Below, in pieces: positions 650 through 62,992 of a DNA stretch of 64,000 bases. The translations under genes and the position numbers were made by a program. Below the pieces are notes generated by a model. It did not search any database. It was given only the letters and a program-made list of their open reading frames with translations, and was not told where the DNA came from. This stretch comes from Polaribacter litorisediminis. Lineage in GTDB: Bacteria; Bacteroidota; Bacteroidia; Flavobacteriales; Flavobacteriaceae. Position 1 is the stretch's first letter. Every line of letters starts with the position of its first letter. Location of the stretch: contig NZ_CP082966.1 of NCBI RefSeq assembly GCF_019968605.1, positions 1,475,001-1,539,000 of the forward strand. The letters run 5' to 3'.

Positions 650-1933
650 TTATTTTAAATCATCTAAACGTAAAGTAACCGCATTTTTATGCGCTTGTAA
701 ACCTTCTGCTGCTGCCATAATTTCTATGGATTTCCCAATCGTTTTAATCCCTTCTTTCGATATTTTTTGAAACGTAATACTTTTCATAAAACTATCTAAA
801 TTTACACCTGAATACGCTTTTGTAAATCCGTTAGTTGGCAACGTATGGTTGGTTCCTGAGGCATAATCTCCGGCACTTTCTGGCGTATAATTGCCTATAA
901 AAACGGAACCTGCATTTTCTATATGATCCACATAAAAATCATCATTCTTCGTACAAATAATAAAATGTTCTGGCCCATATTCATTGATTAAATCTAAAGC
1001 AATTTCATCTGTTTCAACAAAAATAGATTTCGAATTTTCAATCGCTTTAGAAGCAATTTCAAATCGAGGCAATTCTTTTAATTGACGTTCAATTTCTATG
1101 GCAACAGCTGAAATTAATTGTTTAGAAGTTGAGACCAATATAACTTGACTATCTTTTCCGTGCTCTGCTTGACTCAATAAATCTGAAGCTACATAACTTG
1201 CATTTGCCGTATTGTCTGCAACCACCAATAATTCACTCGGTCCTGCGGGCATATCAATAGCAACGCCATATTTGGTTGCTAACTGTTTTGCAACGGTTAC
1301 AAATTGATTTCCGGGACCAAAAATTTTATAGACTTGTGGAATGGATCTTGTTCCGAAAGTTAATCCTGCAATTGCTTGAATGCCCCCTACTTTAATAATT
1401 TTTGTAACTCCACAAAGTTTTGCTGCATATAAAATTGCTGGGTGAATTTTACCTTCTTTATTTGGTGGCGAACAAAGCACAATTTCTTTACAACCTGCAA
1501 TTTGAGCAGGAATTGCCAACATTAAAACCGTAGAAAAAAGCGGAGCAGTTCCGCCAGGAATATATAAACCAACTTTCTGAATCGGTCTTTTTTCTTGCCA
1601 ACACTGAACCCCTTTTACGGTTTCTGCATATACATTTTCAGTTTTTTGTGCGTTATGAAAAGTAGTAATATTTTTCTTTGCCAATAGAATAGCCTCTTTT
1701 AATTCTTCTGATACTAATGAAATTGCTAACGCTATTTCATCCAAAGAAACCACAGTATTTTCTAGCTTTACACCGTCAAATAATTGCGTGTATTTATCAA
1801 CGGATATATCACCATTTTTTTGAATATCATCAAAAATTTGATTCACATTCTTTTCAATATCATCAATTGTTTTTGTAGGTCTTTGTAATATTTGAGACCA
1901 ATTTTCTTTCGGTGGATTTATAATCGTTTTCAT
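650..1933 (-). CDS. hisD: Histidinol dehydrogenase
   Basis: Zinc-dependent NAD+ oxidoreductase that oxidises L-histidinol twice to L-histidine, the last step of the pathway. The 427-residue length is normal for HisD. Visible signatures include GLYIPGGTAPLFSTVLM near residue 125, the block IFGPGNQFVTVAK, AGPSELLVVAD, and SQAEHGKDSQ, which carries the Gln and His of the metal/substrate site. The motif GPEHFIICT holds the catalytic Glu-His pair. It lies 104 bases downstream of hisG and upstream of hisC. This is the usual order G-D-C in Bacteroidota. Nothing in it looks truncated or shifted. Confidence 0.97.
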   Translation of the reverse strand: MKTIINPPKENWSQILQRPTKTIDDIEKNVNQIFDDIQKNGDISVDKYTQLFDGVKLENTVVSLDEIALAISLVSEELKEAILLAKKNITTFHNAQKTENVYAETVKGVQCWQEKRPIQKVGLYIPGGTAPLFSTVLMLAIPAQIAGCKEIVLCSPPNKEGKIHPAILYAAKLCGVTKIIKVGGIQAIAGLTFGTRSIPQVYKIFGPGNQFVTVAKQLATKYGVAIDMPAGPSELLVVADNTANASYVASDLLSQAEHGKDSQVILVSTSKQLISAVAIEIERQLKELPRFEIASKAIENSKSIFVETDEIALDLINEYGPEHFIICTKNDDFYVDHIENAGSVFIGNYTPESAGDYASGTNHTLPTNGFTKAYSGVNLDSFMKSITFQKISKEGIKTIGKSIEIMAAAEGLQAHKNAVTLRLDDLK

Positions 1934-2037: not shown

Positions 2038-2895
2038 CTAAAGCACCATTTTTTCAATAGGACATACTAAAATACCCTCTGCTCCATTTTGTTTTAATTC
2101 ATCAATAATTTCCCAAAATTCATTTTTAGAAATTACGGTATGCACAGAACTCCAACCTTTTTCTGCTAATGGTAAAACTGTAGGACTTCTCATTCCTGGT
2201 AATAATTTCAAAATGGCCTCTAACTTTTCATTAGGTGCATTTAGCAATACATATTTAGAGTTTCTTCCTTTTAAAACAGACTGAATTCTAAATTGAACTT
2301 TCTGTAAAATAGTGTTTCTTTCTTCTGAAATTAATGGTGATACCGCTAAAACTGCTTCCGATTTTAATAAAACTTCAATCTCTTTTAAACCATTTTTGAA
2401 TAATGTGCTTCCGCTAGAAACGATATCACAAATTCCGTCTGCCAAACCAATATTTGGGGCAATTTCTACAGAACCATTAATGATATGCAAGTGTGCATCG
2501 ATGTTTTGATCTTTTAAAAATTTTTTTACGGTTTGTGGATACGAAGTTGCTATTCTTTTTCCGTCTAAATCTTTTAAAGAATTTGCATCAGATTCTTTTG
2601 GTACGGCTATAGAAACTTTGCATTTAGAAAAGCCTAAACGCTCTATAAACTTAATTTCGCCTCCTTTTTCTATCAAAACATTCTCGCCAATAATTGCCGC
2701 ATCAACGACTCCATCTCTTAGATATTGAGGAATATCGCCATTTCTTAAATAGAAAACTTCCAAAGGAAAATTTCTTGCCGATGCTTTTAGCTGATCTTTT
2801 CCGTTATCAATAGAAATACCAATGTCTTTTAAGATTCTCATAGAATCTTCATTTAATCTTCCTGACTTTTGTACTGCAATTCTTAAGTTACTCAT
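2038..2895 (-). CDS. hisG: ATP phosphoribosyltransferase, long form
   Basis: Catalyses the first committed step of histidine synthesis, joining ATP and PRPP. At 285 residues it is the long HisG form with a C-terminal ACT-like regulatory domain (from about residue 210, starting near the LPGMRSPTVLPL block), which binds histidine for feedback inhibition; no HisZ partner is needed. N-terminal signatures are LRIAVQKSGRL and VVDAAIIGENVL, and the PRPP loop region ISDIVSSGSTL-like (GICDIVSSGST) is clear. It is the first structural gene of the operon. It is preceded by a leader peptide and terminator at 3004-3120, so it should also be controlled by attenuation. Confidence 0.97.
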   Translation of the reverse strand: MSNLRIAVQKSGRLNEDSMRILKDIGISIDNGKDQLKASARNFPLEVFYLRNGDIPQYLRDGVVDAAIIGENVLIEKGGEIKFIERLGFSKCKVSIAVPKESDANSLKDLDGKRIATSYPQTVKKFLKDQNIDAHLHIINGSVEIAPNIGLADGICDIVSSGSTLFKNGLKEIEVLLKSEAVLAVSPLISEERNTILQKVQFRIQSVLKGRNSKYVLLNAPNEKLEAILKLLPGMRSPTVLPLAEKGWSSVHTVISKNEFWEIIDELKQNGAEGILVCPIEKMVL

Positions 2896-2928: not shown

Positions 2929-2954
2929 AGATTCCCTTTTTCAAGGGAATGACA
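2929..2954 (-). repeat. Hairpin repeat, copy 1 (GTCATTCCC family)
   Basis: On the minus strand TGTCATTCCCTT-GAAA-AAGGGAATCTA forms an 8-bp stem with a GAAA-type loop. The same element with compensating changes in the stem (CCCGT/ACGGG) occurs at 14683-14707, flanked by the same GTC and CTAAA. This marks it as a dispersed intergenic repeat and not part of the his control region proper. It lies in the untranslated region between the his attenuator and hisG. Confidence 0.6.
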
Positions 2955-3003: not shown

Positions 3004-3032
3004 AAACCTGTTTGATTTGCTCAAACAGGTTT
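3004..3032 (-). terminator. his operon attenuator terminator
   Basis: AAACCTGTTTGA, loop of five, TCAAACAGGTTT: a perfect 12-bp inverted repeat followed on the minus strand by TTTTTT. It lies between the leader peptide stop (3064) and hisG (2895), so transcripts that start upstream must pass it to reach hisG. The minus-strand segment TCAAGC at 3071-3076, inside the last codons of the leader, can pair with GTTTGA of the 5' arm. That gives a plausible competing antiterminator. Confidence 0.85.
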
Positions 3033-3063
3033 ATAAATATTTTGATTTTATTCAATACATTTC

Positions 3064-3120
3064 TAAATCGCTTGATTGCAATTGTAAAAATGATGATGAT
3101 GATTTTGCGTAATTGTCATG
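3064..3120 (-). CDS. hisL: his operon leader peptide
   Basis: An 18-codon reading frame translates to MTITQNHHHHFYNCNQAI and a TAG stop. The four consecutive CAT His codons at 3091-3102 are the hallmark of ribosome-mediated attenuation. With enough charged tRNA-His the ribosome reaches the stop and covers the segment 3071-3076, allowing the terminator at 3004-3032 to form. Stalling on the His run leaves that segment free to open the terminator. An AAAAGA-like stretch lies just before the ATG. Position, composition and hairpin all agree; that it is translated is inferred. Confidence 0.82.
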
Positions 3121-3137
3121 TCTTTTATTCGATGGGC

Positions 3138-3170
3138 AAATATTCAAATTTTATTTTGATAATTCCAAAG
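3138..3170 (-). promoter_or_regulatory. Candidate promoter of the his leader
   Basis: Reading the minus strand, TTTG (3170-3167) is followed 25 bases later by AATATTTG (3145-3138), an imperfect match to the Bacteroidota TAnnTTTG -7 element with a TTTG -33 element at roughly the expected spacing. A start near 3130 would leave about 10 bases before the leader ATG. Weak but well placed. Confidence 0.35.
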
Positions 3171-14682: not shown

Positions 14683-14707
14683 GTCATTCCCGTGAAAACG
14701 GGAATCT
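14683..14707 (+). repeat. Hairpin repeat, copy 2 (GTCATTCCC family)
   Basis: ATTCCCGT-GAAA-ACGGGAAT, a perfect 8-bp stem with a GAAA loop, flanked by GTC and CTAAA exactly as in the copy at 2929-2954. The stem bases differ from that copy in a compensatory way. Confidence 0.65.
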
Positions 14708-50935: not shown

Positions 50936-51077
50936 CAGTTTTAATATCACTTTTAAAAGATAAATAATAGATTGGTATAATTAATGAATAAACAAAAGCT
51001 ATTTCCTTAAATCTTGAATATTATTCAAAGAAAATAGTTTTTAATTTTACTTTTGAAAGTGTAAAAAGAAAATAAAA

Positions 51078-51446
51078 AAGCAGACTAATAAGCCGAATTC
51101 TGTACCCTAAAATTTTTAAGGCTCTTATCATTTATCTAGTTCTAAAATTACTTTTAGAATCTATCTGCCTACCCTTTAGAATCGAGCGAGTAGCCCTCAA
51201 GCTCTAATATACATGGCATTGCACATCATAGAGTTTACCTGGTTTCACTACAGCCGAACTGTACTTGCTTTCTGTTGCACTTGTCCTCAACTTACGTTGG
51301 ACGGATGTTATCCGCTATGAGCACTCTATTGTGTCCGGACTTTCCTCTTTATTCCGAACTTAATTTTAAAACCTTTGCTAAAATATTTCTATTTATGAGA
51401 AGGGTGTAAAAAAAAATCATCAAAAGCGATAAGAAAAGTCTGCTTT
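51078..51446 (-). ncRNA. rnpB: RNase P RNA
   Basis: RNA component of ribonuclease P, which trims tRNA 5' ends. On the minus strand the P1 arm AGCAGAC at the start pairs with GTCTGCT at the end. Between them are the universal blocks GAGGAAAGTCCGGACAC, GAAACCAGGTAAACTC, GAGGGCTACTCGCTCGA, AAGGGTAGGCAGATAGA and ACAGAATTCGGCTTA. The order and spacing are those of the bacterial class A RNA. Ends are set from the P1 pairing and may be off by a few bases. Confidence 0.93.
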
Positions 51447-62716: not shown

Positions 62717-62759
62717 ATCTCATAAAATCTTTATCCCGAAGATTTTTATAAATTTAAGA

Positions 62760-62925
62760 TCCTTGGCAGGTCTCCTGACTTGTTTTTATGTTATGATACC
62801 TTCCCAACAAAAAATGTCAGTGGTAAAAGAGTTTATAACATCCTCAAACGAGGTACTAAAATAAATTTAGTATCAACTTACAGTTGCGGGAACAGTTCTA
62901 GATTTTAACTAGATTCCCTTTTAAT
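62760..62925 (-). promoter_or_regulatory. Cobalamin riboswitch
   Basis: On the minus strand the core blocks appear in order: AAAAGGGAATCTAG, GTTCCCGCAACTGTAA, CCACTG, GGGAAGG and finally the B12 box AGTCAGGAGACCTGCC (62780-62765). The 3' edge lies about 45 bases before the btuB ATG. There is no strong terminator hairpin, so control is probably by masking the ribosome site. Bound cobalamin would shut off btuB-btuG. Confidence 0.93.
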
Positions 62926-62965
62926 TTGATGTAAAATGATTTGTACATCAAAACCAAAAATCATG

Positions 62966-62992
62966 CAAATATAAATCGAATTGAATAAACAA
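62966..62992 (-). promoter_or_regulatory. Promoter of the cobalamin riboswitch transcript
   Basis: Minus strand TTG (62992-62990), 16 bases, TATATTTG (62973-62966): an exact TAnnTTTG -7 element with a TTG upstream at slightly short spacing. A palindrome TTTGATGTA/TACATCAAA (62925-62952) lies between it and the riboswitch core. Confidence 0.5.

Follow-up and report, generated by a model that had tools for sequence, protein, structure and literature searches.

A Probable Ribosome-Mediated Attenuator With a Histidine Leader Peptide Upstream of hisG in Polaribacter litorisediminis and Its Counterparts in Other Bacteroidota

Results

Layout of the his Operon Leader Region

The DNA analyzed in this work, called the window below, is a stretch of 64,000 nt from Polaribacter litorisediminis (contig NZ_CP082966.1, positions 1,475,001 to 1,539,000). 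Direct reading and Pfam give the following order on its minus strand, to which all coordinates of the locus refer: a promoter-like motif (3137..3169), a leader ORF, a terminator hairpin, hisG (2038..2895) and hisD, the next gene of the operon (650..1933; PF00815). The leader ORF MTITQNHHHHFYNCNQAI (3063..3119), read from the sequence, runs from the ATG at 3119 to the TAG at 3063 and has 18 codons. Codons 7-10 are four CAT (His) codons (3090..3101), which the sequence and its relatives mark as the presumed sensor. The intrinsic terminator (3004..3032), likewise recognized in the sequence and in relatives, has the arms D (3032-3021) and E (3015-3004) (AAACCUGUUUGA/UCAAACAGGUUU), which by direct reading form 12 perfect pairs followed by a U tail. 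An earlier sequence-only reading of this DNA had described an 18-codon leader with four consecutive CAT codons, a perfect 12-bp terminator with a T tail, and a long-form hisG. Direct reading confirmed the first two, and the HisG_C domain (PF08029) found by Pfam agrees with the third; the spacing between stop codon and stem, given as 31 bases, had to be corrected to 30.

The leader region folds with z = -4.7 and none of 200 shuffles is equally stable, the terminator supplying much of the stability. Between the terminator and hisG lie 108 nt of AT-rich DNA containing one copy of a palindromic repeat. This repeat (GTCATTCCC...GGGAATC) has copies at 2930-2953 (-) and 14683-14706 (+), with none expected by chance. 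Rfam also finds a cobalamin riboswitch at 62748-62973 (-) and a bacterial RNase P RNA at 51073-51381 (-) in the window.

The leader RNA matches no family of Rfam release 15 at gathering score or E <= 5, including His_leader (RF00514), the his attenuator of E. coli and Salmonella. A structured and conserved 5' region with a terminator at its end is also what a T-box or a metabolite riboswitch would look like, for which translation would not be needed; with neither class among the Rfam matches at these thresholds, a T-box or known riboswitch was rejected as a candidate, and the conservation of the reading frame and its His codons (below) leaves this explanation a very low probability in our judgment.

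Conservation of the Leader and Terminator in Related Genomes

A starting set of 110 hisG loci was composed of the best 30 of the 130 HisG-bearing genomes from a genus search (146 genomes searched) and the best 80 of at least 532 named-genome relatives. Removal of 13 exact duplicates and of L106, which has 180 nt of upstream DNA, left 96 relatives, chosen by HisG similarity and not randomly. The genera represented include Polaribacter, Tenacibaculum, Algibacter, Winogradskyella, Psychroserpens, Flavivirga, and Maribacter; among the named loci compared, none is named Flavobacterium. An ATG leader ORF with His codons is present upstream of hisG in 96/96 relatives. It is 15-19 aa long (18 aa in 60 and 17 aa in 34) and typically reads M-x-F-I-Q-x-H-H-H-(H)-F-Y/H-x-C-x-Q-A-x, with 380 CAT and 11 CAC His codons across the set. 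At least three His per 8 residues were found in all 96 relatives vs 2/96 on the reverse strand and 2-4/96 in three shuffles, and at least four in 82/96 vs none in either control; a chance ORF was rejected because these controls fall far below the relatives. A terminator of -8 kcal/mol or better was found in 96/96. Since runs of four His are not rare genome-wide (53 matches vs 7 for the reversed pattern), position and conservation, rather than the run alone, carry the evidence.

The same rules missed seven of 129 further loci, three without a leader at the His threshold and four without a terminator. In a family-wide draw of about one genome per genus, model R1 matched 180/199 genomes at E <= 0.01, with rough E-values and a check that covered only part of the 180 matches. 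The 58 family matches L170-L227 (E 5e-18 to 2.2e-6) all sit before hisG. Among 22 loci from the phylum search with R1 (L228-L249), all 11 with E < 1e-4 precede hisG, and only one (L247) of the 11 with E >= 1.1e-4 does; these weak phylum matches, probably generic terminators, were set aside.

Two loci depart from the common leader. A close relative from the same genus (L142, genome G119) has kept the terminator, spacer, and segment B (see below), and its leader MTFIQNYHRFYNCSQAI has a single His codon (NYHRF); this may represent decay or relaxed control. In L049 (2840-2979) the leader is three codons short (15 aa), and the letters of the downstream RNA are largely kept.

The promoter-like motif of the window, located by a conserved-motif count, consists of TTG at 3168-3166 and ATATTTG at 3143-3137, separated by 22 nt. 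Among the relatives, 86/96 have A[AT][ATC]TTTG 16-20 nt upstream of the leader ATG and 56/96 have TTG a further 21-22 nt upstream, compared with 0.079 and 0.005 in letter shuffles; this is a relaxed form of the motif, adopted after a stricter rule closer to the consensus gave 56/96 and 27/96. The motif is similar to the TAnnTTTG box that flavobacteria have at -12 to -5, according to the sections of PMC9723704 used here. If it is used like that box, transcription would begin about 13 nt ahead of the leader, near 3132 in the window.

Two Mutually Exclusive Sets of Helices

Alignment A1 holds 68 of the 96 rows; 28 rows, L049 among them, were left out to thin similar rows. Its helices were named by hand and then counted against shuffles. 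A held-out set of 115 sequences, non-identical to A1 rows and mostly from other genera of the family, was added by MAFFT without structure; L111 (identical to an A1 row), L142 (single His) and L143 (the window itself) were left out of it. The shuffles leave relatedness in, so the pairing figures below are supports and not probabilities.

The terminated set comprises P1, P2 and the terminator D:E. Helix P1 (3047..3113) pairs the Phe-Ile-Gln codons 3-5 (3113-3105) with UUGAAUAAA (3055-3047), 3' of the stop codon. Hairpin P2 (3058..3092) pairs 3092-3078, i.e., the last His codon and the FYNC codons, with 3071-3058, which consists of codons 17-18, the stop codon, and AAAUG. P2 belongs to the minimum-energy fold of the window copy, and three of the nine P1 pairs are lost there. 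In A1, 92.1% of the cells of this set are paired vs 88.2% after shuffling, and 102 cells are changed on both sides vs 39.4, values that 0/500 shuffles reach in either case; pairing drops to 53 and 52% when the set is slid by one column. The terminator is paired in 99.6% of cells, and P1 shows two-sided changes at 3/9 pairs. The P2 pair 44:59 is AU in 26 rows of A1, CG in 21, UA in 11, and UG in eight, and in held-out rows CG in 59, UA in 23, AU in 17, and UG in seven.

Within P2, covariation in the relatives links the stop codon (UAA or UGA) to a codon of the leader. Its middle letter (column 62) takes part in C-G in 32 rows of A1, U-A in 27, and U-G in one, and is unpaired in eight. The association between codon letter and stop-codon letter in pair 40:62 has Fisher p values of 3.5e-15 and 1.1e-12, kinship uncorrected; the HisG tree carries 15 changes of the stop-codon letter and 24 of its partner. 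The held-out rows gave 82.6% pairing vs 77.1% shuffled (maximum of 200 shuffles: 78.3%) for P2, 64.4% vs 55.5% (58.2%) for P1, and 98.6% vs 95.1% (95.8%) for D:E. P1, P2, and D:E thus covary in the sequences compared. Since the codons of the conserved FIQ and QA residues pair and covary as RNA, we rejected the idea that these residues are kept mainly for a function at the protein level.

The antiterminated set comprises the antiterminator B:D and hairpin P3. Segment B, UCAAGCG in codons 15-17 (3069..3075), is the antiterminator strand and pairs with 3027-3021 of D; the sequence-only reading had placed a competing segment at 3071-3076, which overlaps the comparison-supported UCAAGCG (3075-3069) and differs from it in its limits. 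P3 (3038..3059) pairs UGUAUUGA (3059-3052) with UCAAAAUA (3045-3038) in the window, and UGUAUUGA with UCAANAUA across relatives. P1, P2, and P3 are additional to the parts listed in that reading. Paired cells in A1 amount to 98.3% for B:D, in which UCAAGCG meets CGUUUGA or UGUUUGA, and to 97.7% for P3. There is little variation in this set, where a single pair changes on both sides, in five sequences, and two of the five measures applied to A1 show no advantage over shuffles (250 and 209 of 500). In the held-out rows B:D is paired at 97.9% vs 96.9% shuffled (maximum of 200: 97.5%) and P3 at 79.7% vs 73.7% (76.2%).

P3 and P1 are mutually exclusive, and P2 sequesters part of segment B. Because B, which lies in the last leader codons, pairs with the arm D that the terminator also needs, antiterminator and terminator exclude each other. 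Competition between B and E for D shows most clearly in a synonymous change of the Gln codon in B (CAG/CAA), which is tied to both partners. In 12 held-out rows D has C at column 109; 11 of them have G as its terminator partner, 11 have a Gln codon ending in G, and none has one ending in A. Among the rows with U at column 109, 68 have A in that third position and 31 have G. The column-109 change has only two origins on the HisG tree, and no such row occurs in the 68-row A1. As far as can be told from these sequences, B:D and D:E are mutually exclusive.

These pairings bear on the proposal that the hairpin is a constitutive terminator, which ends upstream transcription or insulates hisG, with the His ORF as a bystander and the hisG promoter further downstream. 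In its favor, terminators are often found between genes, the genome has other four-His runs (the 53 matches above), and the 108 nt of AT-rich DNA with the palindromic repeat separate the terminator from hisG. We nevertheless consider this proposal very unlikely, given that the leader, P2 and B:D are conserved, that P2 covaries across genera, and that 86/96 relatives have the promoter-like motif upstream at a constant spacing from the leader ATG. The sequence-only reading had suggested looking upstream of hisG in other Flavobacteriaceae for runs of His codons and covarying hairpins, and both are conserved (leaders in 96/96). It had also named what would count against it, a lack of such conservation or a hisG transcript starting downstream of the terminator; in its sequence part this test came out in favor, with leader and hairpins conserved and the promoter-like motif upstream of the leader.

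Folding With a Modeled Ribosome and the Proposed Mechanism

The 68 RNAs were folded as the part free of an assumed ribosome footprint (12 nt past the A-site codon) and ending before E. With the modeled ribosome on the first His codon, B:D exceeded 0.5 in 67/68 and P3 in 56/68, and mean B:D fell from 0.94 to 0.07 once the letters of D were shuffled. With the ribosome moved to the last His codon, B:D exceeded 0.5 in 33/68 (the window copy gave 0.92). The assumed footprint of a ribosome at the stop codon covers B, and B:D is 0/68 by construction. Without a ribosome, at equilibrium, B:D exceeded 0.5 in 33/68 (0.90 in the window copy). In RNA ending before D, the P2 inner stem exceeded 0.5 in 55/68 and P1 in 60/68; the window copy gave 1.00 for P2 and 0.00 for P1.

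We concluded that the leader region is very probably a ribosome-mediated transcription attenuator of the his operon, which would switch between a terminated form (P1, P2, and D:E) and a read-through form (P3 and B:D). A short ORF with His codons precedes the operon, and an intrinsic terminator lies between this ORF and hisG. The sequence-only reading of a his attenuator with a His leader peptide thereby gains support from the exclusive terminator and antiterminator, the conservation, and the covarying hairpins. The leader, the terminator, and their conservation can be read in the sequences themselves; from these we infer the start site, translation of the leader, stalling, termination, and the histidine response. 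A short leader RNA would start at the putative promoter just upstream. When histidyl-tRNA is scarce, the ribosome would stall on the CAT codons and cover the 5' arm of P2 (and P1), leaving B in the last leader codons free and allowing P3 to form; free B would pair with D before E is made, and the polymerase would continue into hisG. When histidyl-tRNA is plentiful, the ribosome would reach the stop codon and cover B, D:E would pair, and the transcript would end near 3004. In an untranslated leader, P2 (plus P1 in relatives) would form first and sequester B, favoring termination. Several results count against this reading: B:D and P3 show little variation, the column-109 change in D arose only twice, B:D forms in only 33/68 with the ribosome on the last His codon and in as many with no ribosome at all, three P1 pairs are lost in the window copy, the close relative L142 has a single His codon, four-His runs are common in the genome, and the leader is lacking in all but one of 30 genomes with a divergent HisG (see below).

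In this last step P2 would act as a protector, bringing about termination in the absence of leader translation, a role that we propose with moderate confidence on the basis of the folding model. Since the equilibrium without a ribosome already favors B:D in 33/68, the protector role depends on the order of folding; P2 forms in RNA ending before D, so sequential folding would favor P2 first. A polymerase pause hairpin, instead of or besides a protector, is equally compatible with these results.

Distribution Outside the Order of the Window

HisG was found at E <= 1e-10 in 252/296 genomes of a phylum sample. From 88 genomes outside the order of the window (L250-L337), hand-picked among the better HisG matches, 500 nt upstream of hisG were taken. 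At least three His per 8 residues occur in 72/88 vs 5/88 on the reverse strand and 5-11/88 in five shuffles, and at least four in 68/88 vs 1/88 and 0-1/88, respectively. The 16 genomes without a leader by this count are 3/3 in each of the families f15, f19, and f38, 1/1 each in f26 and f42, 2/2 in f48, 1/4 in f22, and 2/5 in f30. An added set of 30 genomes with divergent HisG, 25-35% identical to that of the window (L338-L367; families f13, f14, f16, f18, f20, f21, f27, f29, f31, f32, f36, f40, f45, and f49), has at least three His in 1/30 and at least four in 0/30, compared with two and one on the reverse strand. A phylum-wide leader was rejected on account of this 1/30. Judged by sequence, the leader accompanies one broad hisG lineage and is widespread, not phylum-wide.

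A terminator is also present in 42 of the 72 His-leader loci outside the order. In 23/42 of these the region that begins at the His cluster and extends 15 nt beyond the stop codon is more complementary to the 5' arm of the terminator than shuffles are (p <= 0.05, with about two expected); the same test gave 101 among 122 of L111-L249, nearly all from the order of the window, and its f1/f2 group includes a few loci of other families. The pairing letters are family-specific: GGUAAGC:GCUUACC in f4 and f37, CAGGUAG:CUACCUG in one f5 member, and GCCGG:CCGGC in some members of f17 and f35. Outside the order, the predicted attenuator logic is thus the same and the letters are different.

Family f24 departs from this pattern. 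In f24 (L304-L315) leaders were found in 12/12 genomes and terminators in 0/12, and the last His codon is 0-6 residues from the stop (0 in 6/12). The spacer to hisG has a C content of 0.26, a G content of 0.09, and a folding energy of -3.7 kcal/mol per 100 nt; C and G upstream of the leader are 0.18 and 0.14. Family f3 has terminators in 0/7 and a weaker C excess (0.17 vs 0.12). C-rich, G-poor, unstructured RNA is a hallmark of Rho loading sites. The f24 spacer resembles such sites, and leaders combined with this spacer and no terminator suggest Rho- or translation-based control; translational control is as compatible with the data as Rho.

The 30 of 72 His-leader Bacteroidota loci without an intrinsic terminator by the rule used, including 12/12 of f24, would also suit a more general alternative, namely that the leader is translated and senses histidine and control is exerted mainly via Rho, hisG translation, or the peptide itself. 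For the locus of the window we regard this alternative as improbable, because its family has the terminator and the competing segment in 96/96 and RNA pairing explains the conserved non-His letters; attenuation by the ribosome remains our preferred reading there.

Discussion

The proposed attenuator can be compared with that of enterobacteria, whose his leader has seven His codons. It shares with the E. coli and Salmonella attenuator a leader peptide with consecutive His, a terminator before hisG, a competing antiterminator, and a long, feedback-inhibited HisG. It differs in the helices P1, P2, P3, and B:D, in having no Rfam his-leader match, and, unlike the enterobacterial attenuator, in its four or three His codons and its putative TAnnTTTG-type promoter. 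In E. coli and Salmonella attenuation is combined with feedback inhibition of HisG, according to the sections of PMC8305728 used here; the two layers of histidine control pointed out by the sequence-only reading have this same arrangement and do not stand as a novelty.

A structured 5' element upstream of hisG has been reported in Flavobacterium psychrophilum. In that RNA-seq work, structured 5' elements without Rfam hits were described, one of them upstream of hisG; some, including that of hisG, are conserved in other genera of Flavobacteriaceae, and clues to leader-peptide attenuation were noted upstream of amino-acid operons (PMC9723704). The gene, the bacterial family, the lack of an Rfam hit and the conservation in other genera are shared with the RNA of the window, which is likely identical to that element, the two being likened by description only. 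Section 19 of that paper gives no leader sequence, helices, covariation, or distribution (PMC9723704). The probable his attenuator is thus partly anticipated in print: the description "undescribed-looking" fails for the hisG element and the attenuation clues, and holds for the anatomy as far as section 19 of PMC9723704 is concerned.

Further afield, a histidine leader peptide lies upstream of hisS and hisZ paralogues in bacilli; as of 2010, Proteobacteria and Actinobacteria were the only groups in which systems based on leader peptides had been demonstrated, and bacilli were then added, as stated in the portion of PMC2965389 drawn on here. The His-codon leader ORF and the terminator outside Proteobacteria are common to both systems, which differ in genes and phylum and are likened by description, not by sequence (PMC2965389). 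A paper on his genes in Bacteroidota uses "attenuation" once, for enterobacteria, and "leader" nowhere in the text considered (PMC8305728). Short ORFs reminiscent of leader peptides are described in Bacteroides thetaiotaomicron, in a main text that has neither histidine nor hisG in the portion considered (PMC7366714). In the open-access literature, with most subscription journals outside its scope, we found no description of this leader peptide or of a Bacteroidota-wide his leader. A comparative attenuator study from 2004 reportedly mentions candidates in Bacteroidetes/Chlorobi.

The observations can be joined in a tentative account, which we hold to be possible and somewhat doubtful. Control of hisG by a His leader would be old and widespread in much of Bacteroidota, excluding lineages with divergent HisG. 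The logic, His codons followed by a near-stop segment that mimics the 3' arm of the terminator, would have been kept while its letters were replaced wholesale between families. Family f24 would have lost the terminator, moved the His codons to the stop, and come to rely on Rho or translation, acting on a spacer that is rich in C, poor in G, and unstructured.

The leader RNA represents a well-aligned, covarying RNA family that is unmatched by Rfam release 15, and RNA pairing accounts for the conserved non-His letters of the leader. What makes it interesting is that the design is widely distributed while its letters are replaced, and that one lineage seems to use a similar leader with no intrinsic terminator. 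Ribosome-mediated attenuation requires a ribosome close behind the polymerase, and Bacteroidota have unusual promoters and translation starts; a conserved his attenuator therefore makes coupling testable with a small reporter. If the joint account is true, it would mean close coupling of ribosome and polymerase in bacteria that start translation without Shine-Dalgarno pairing.
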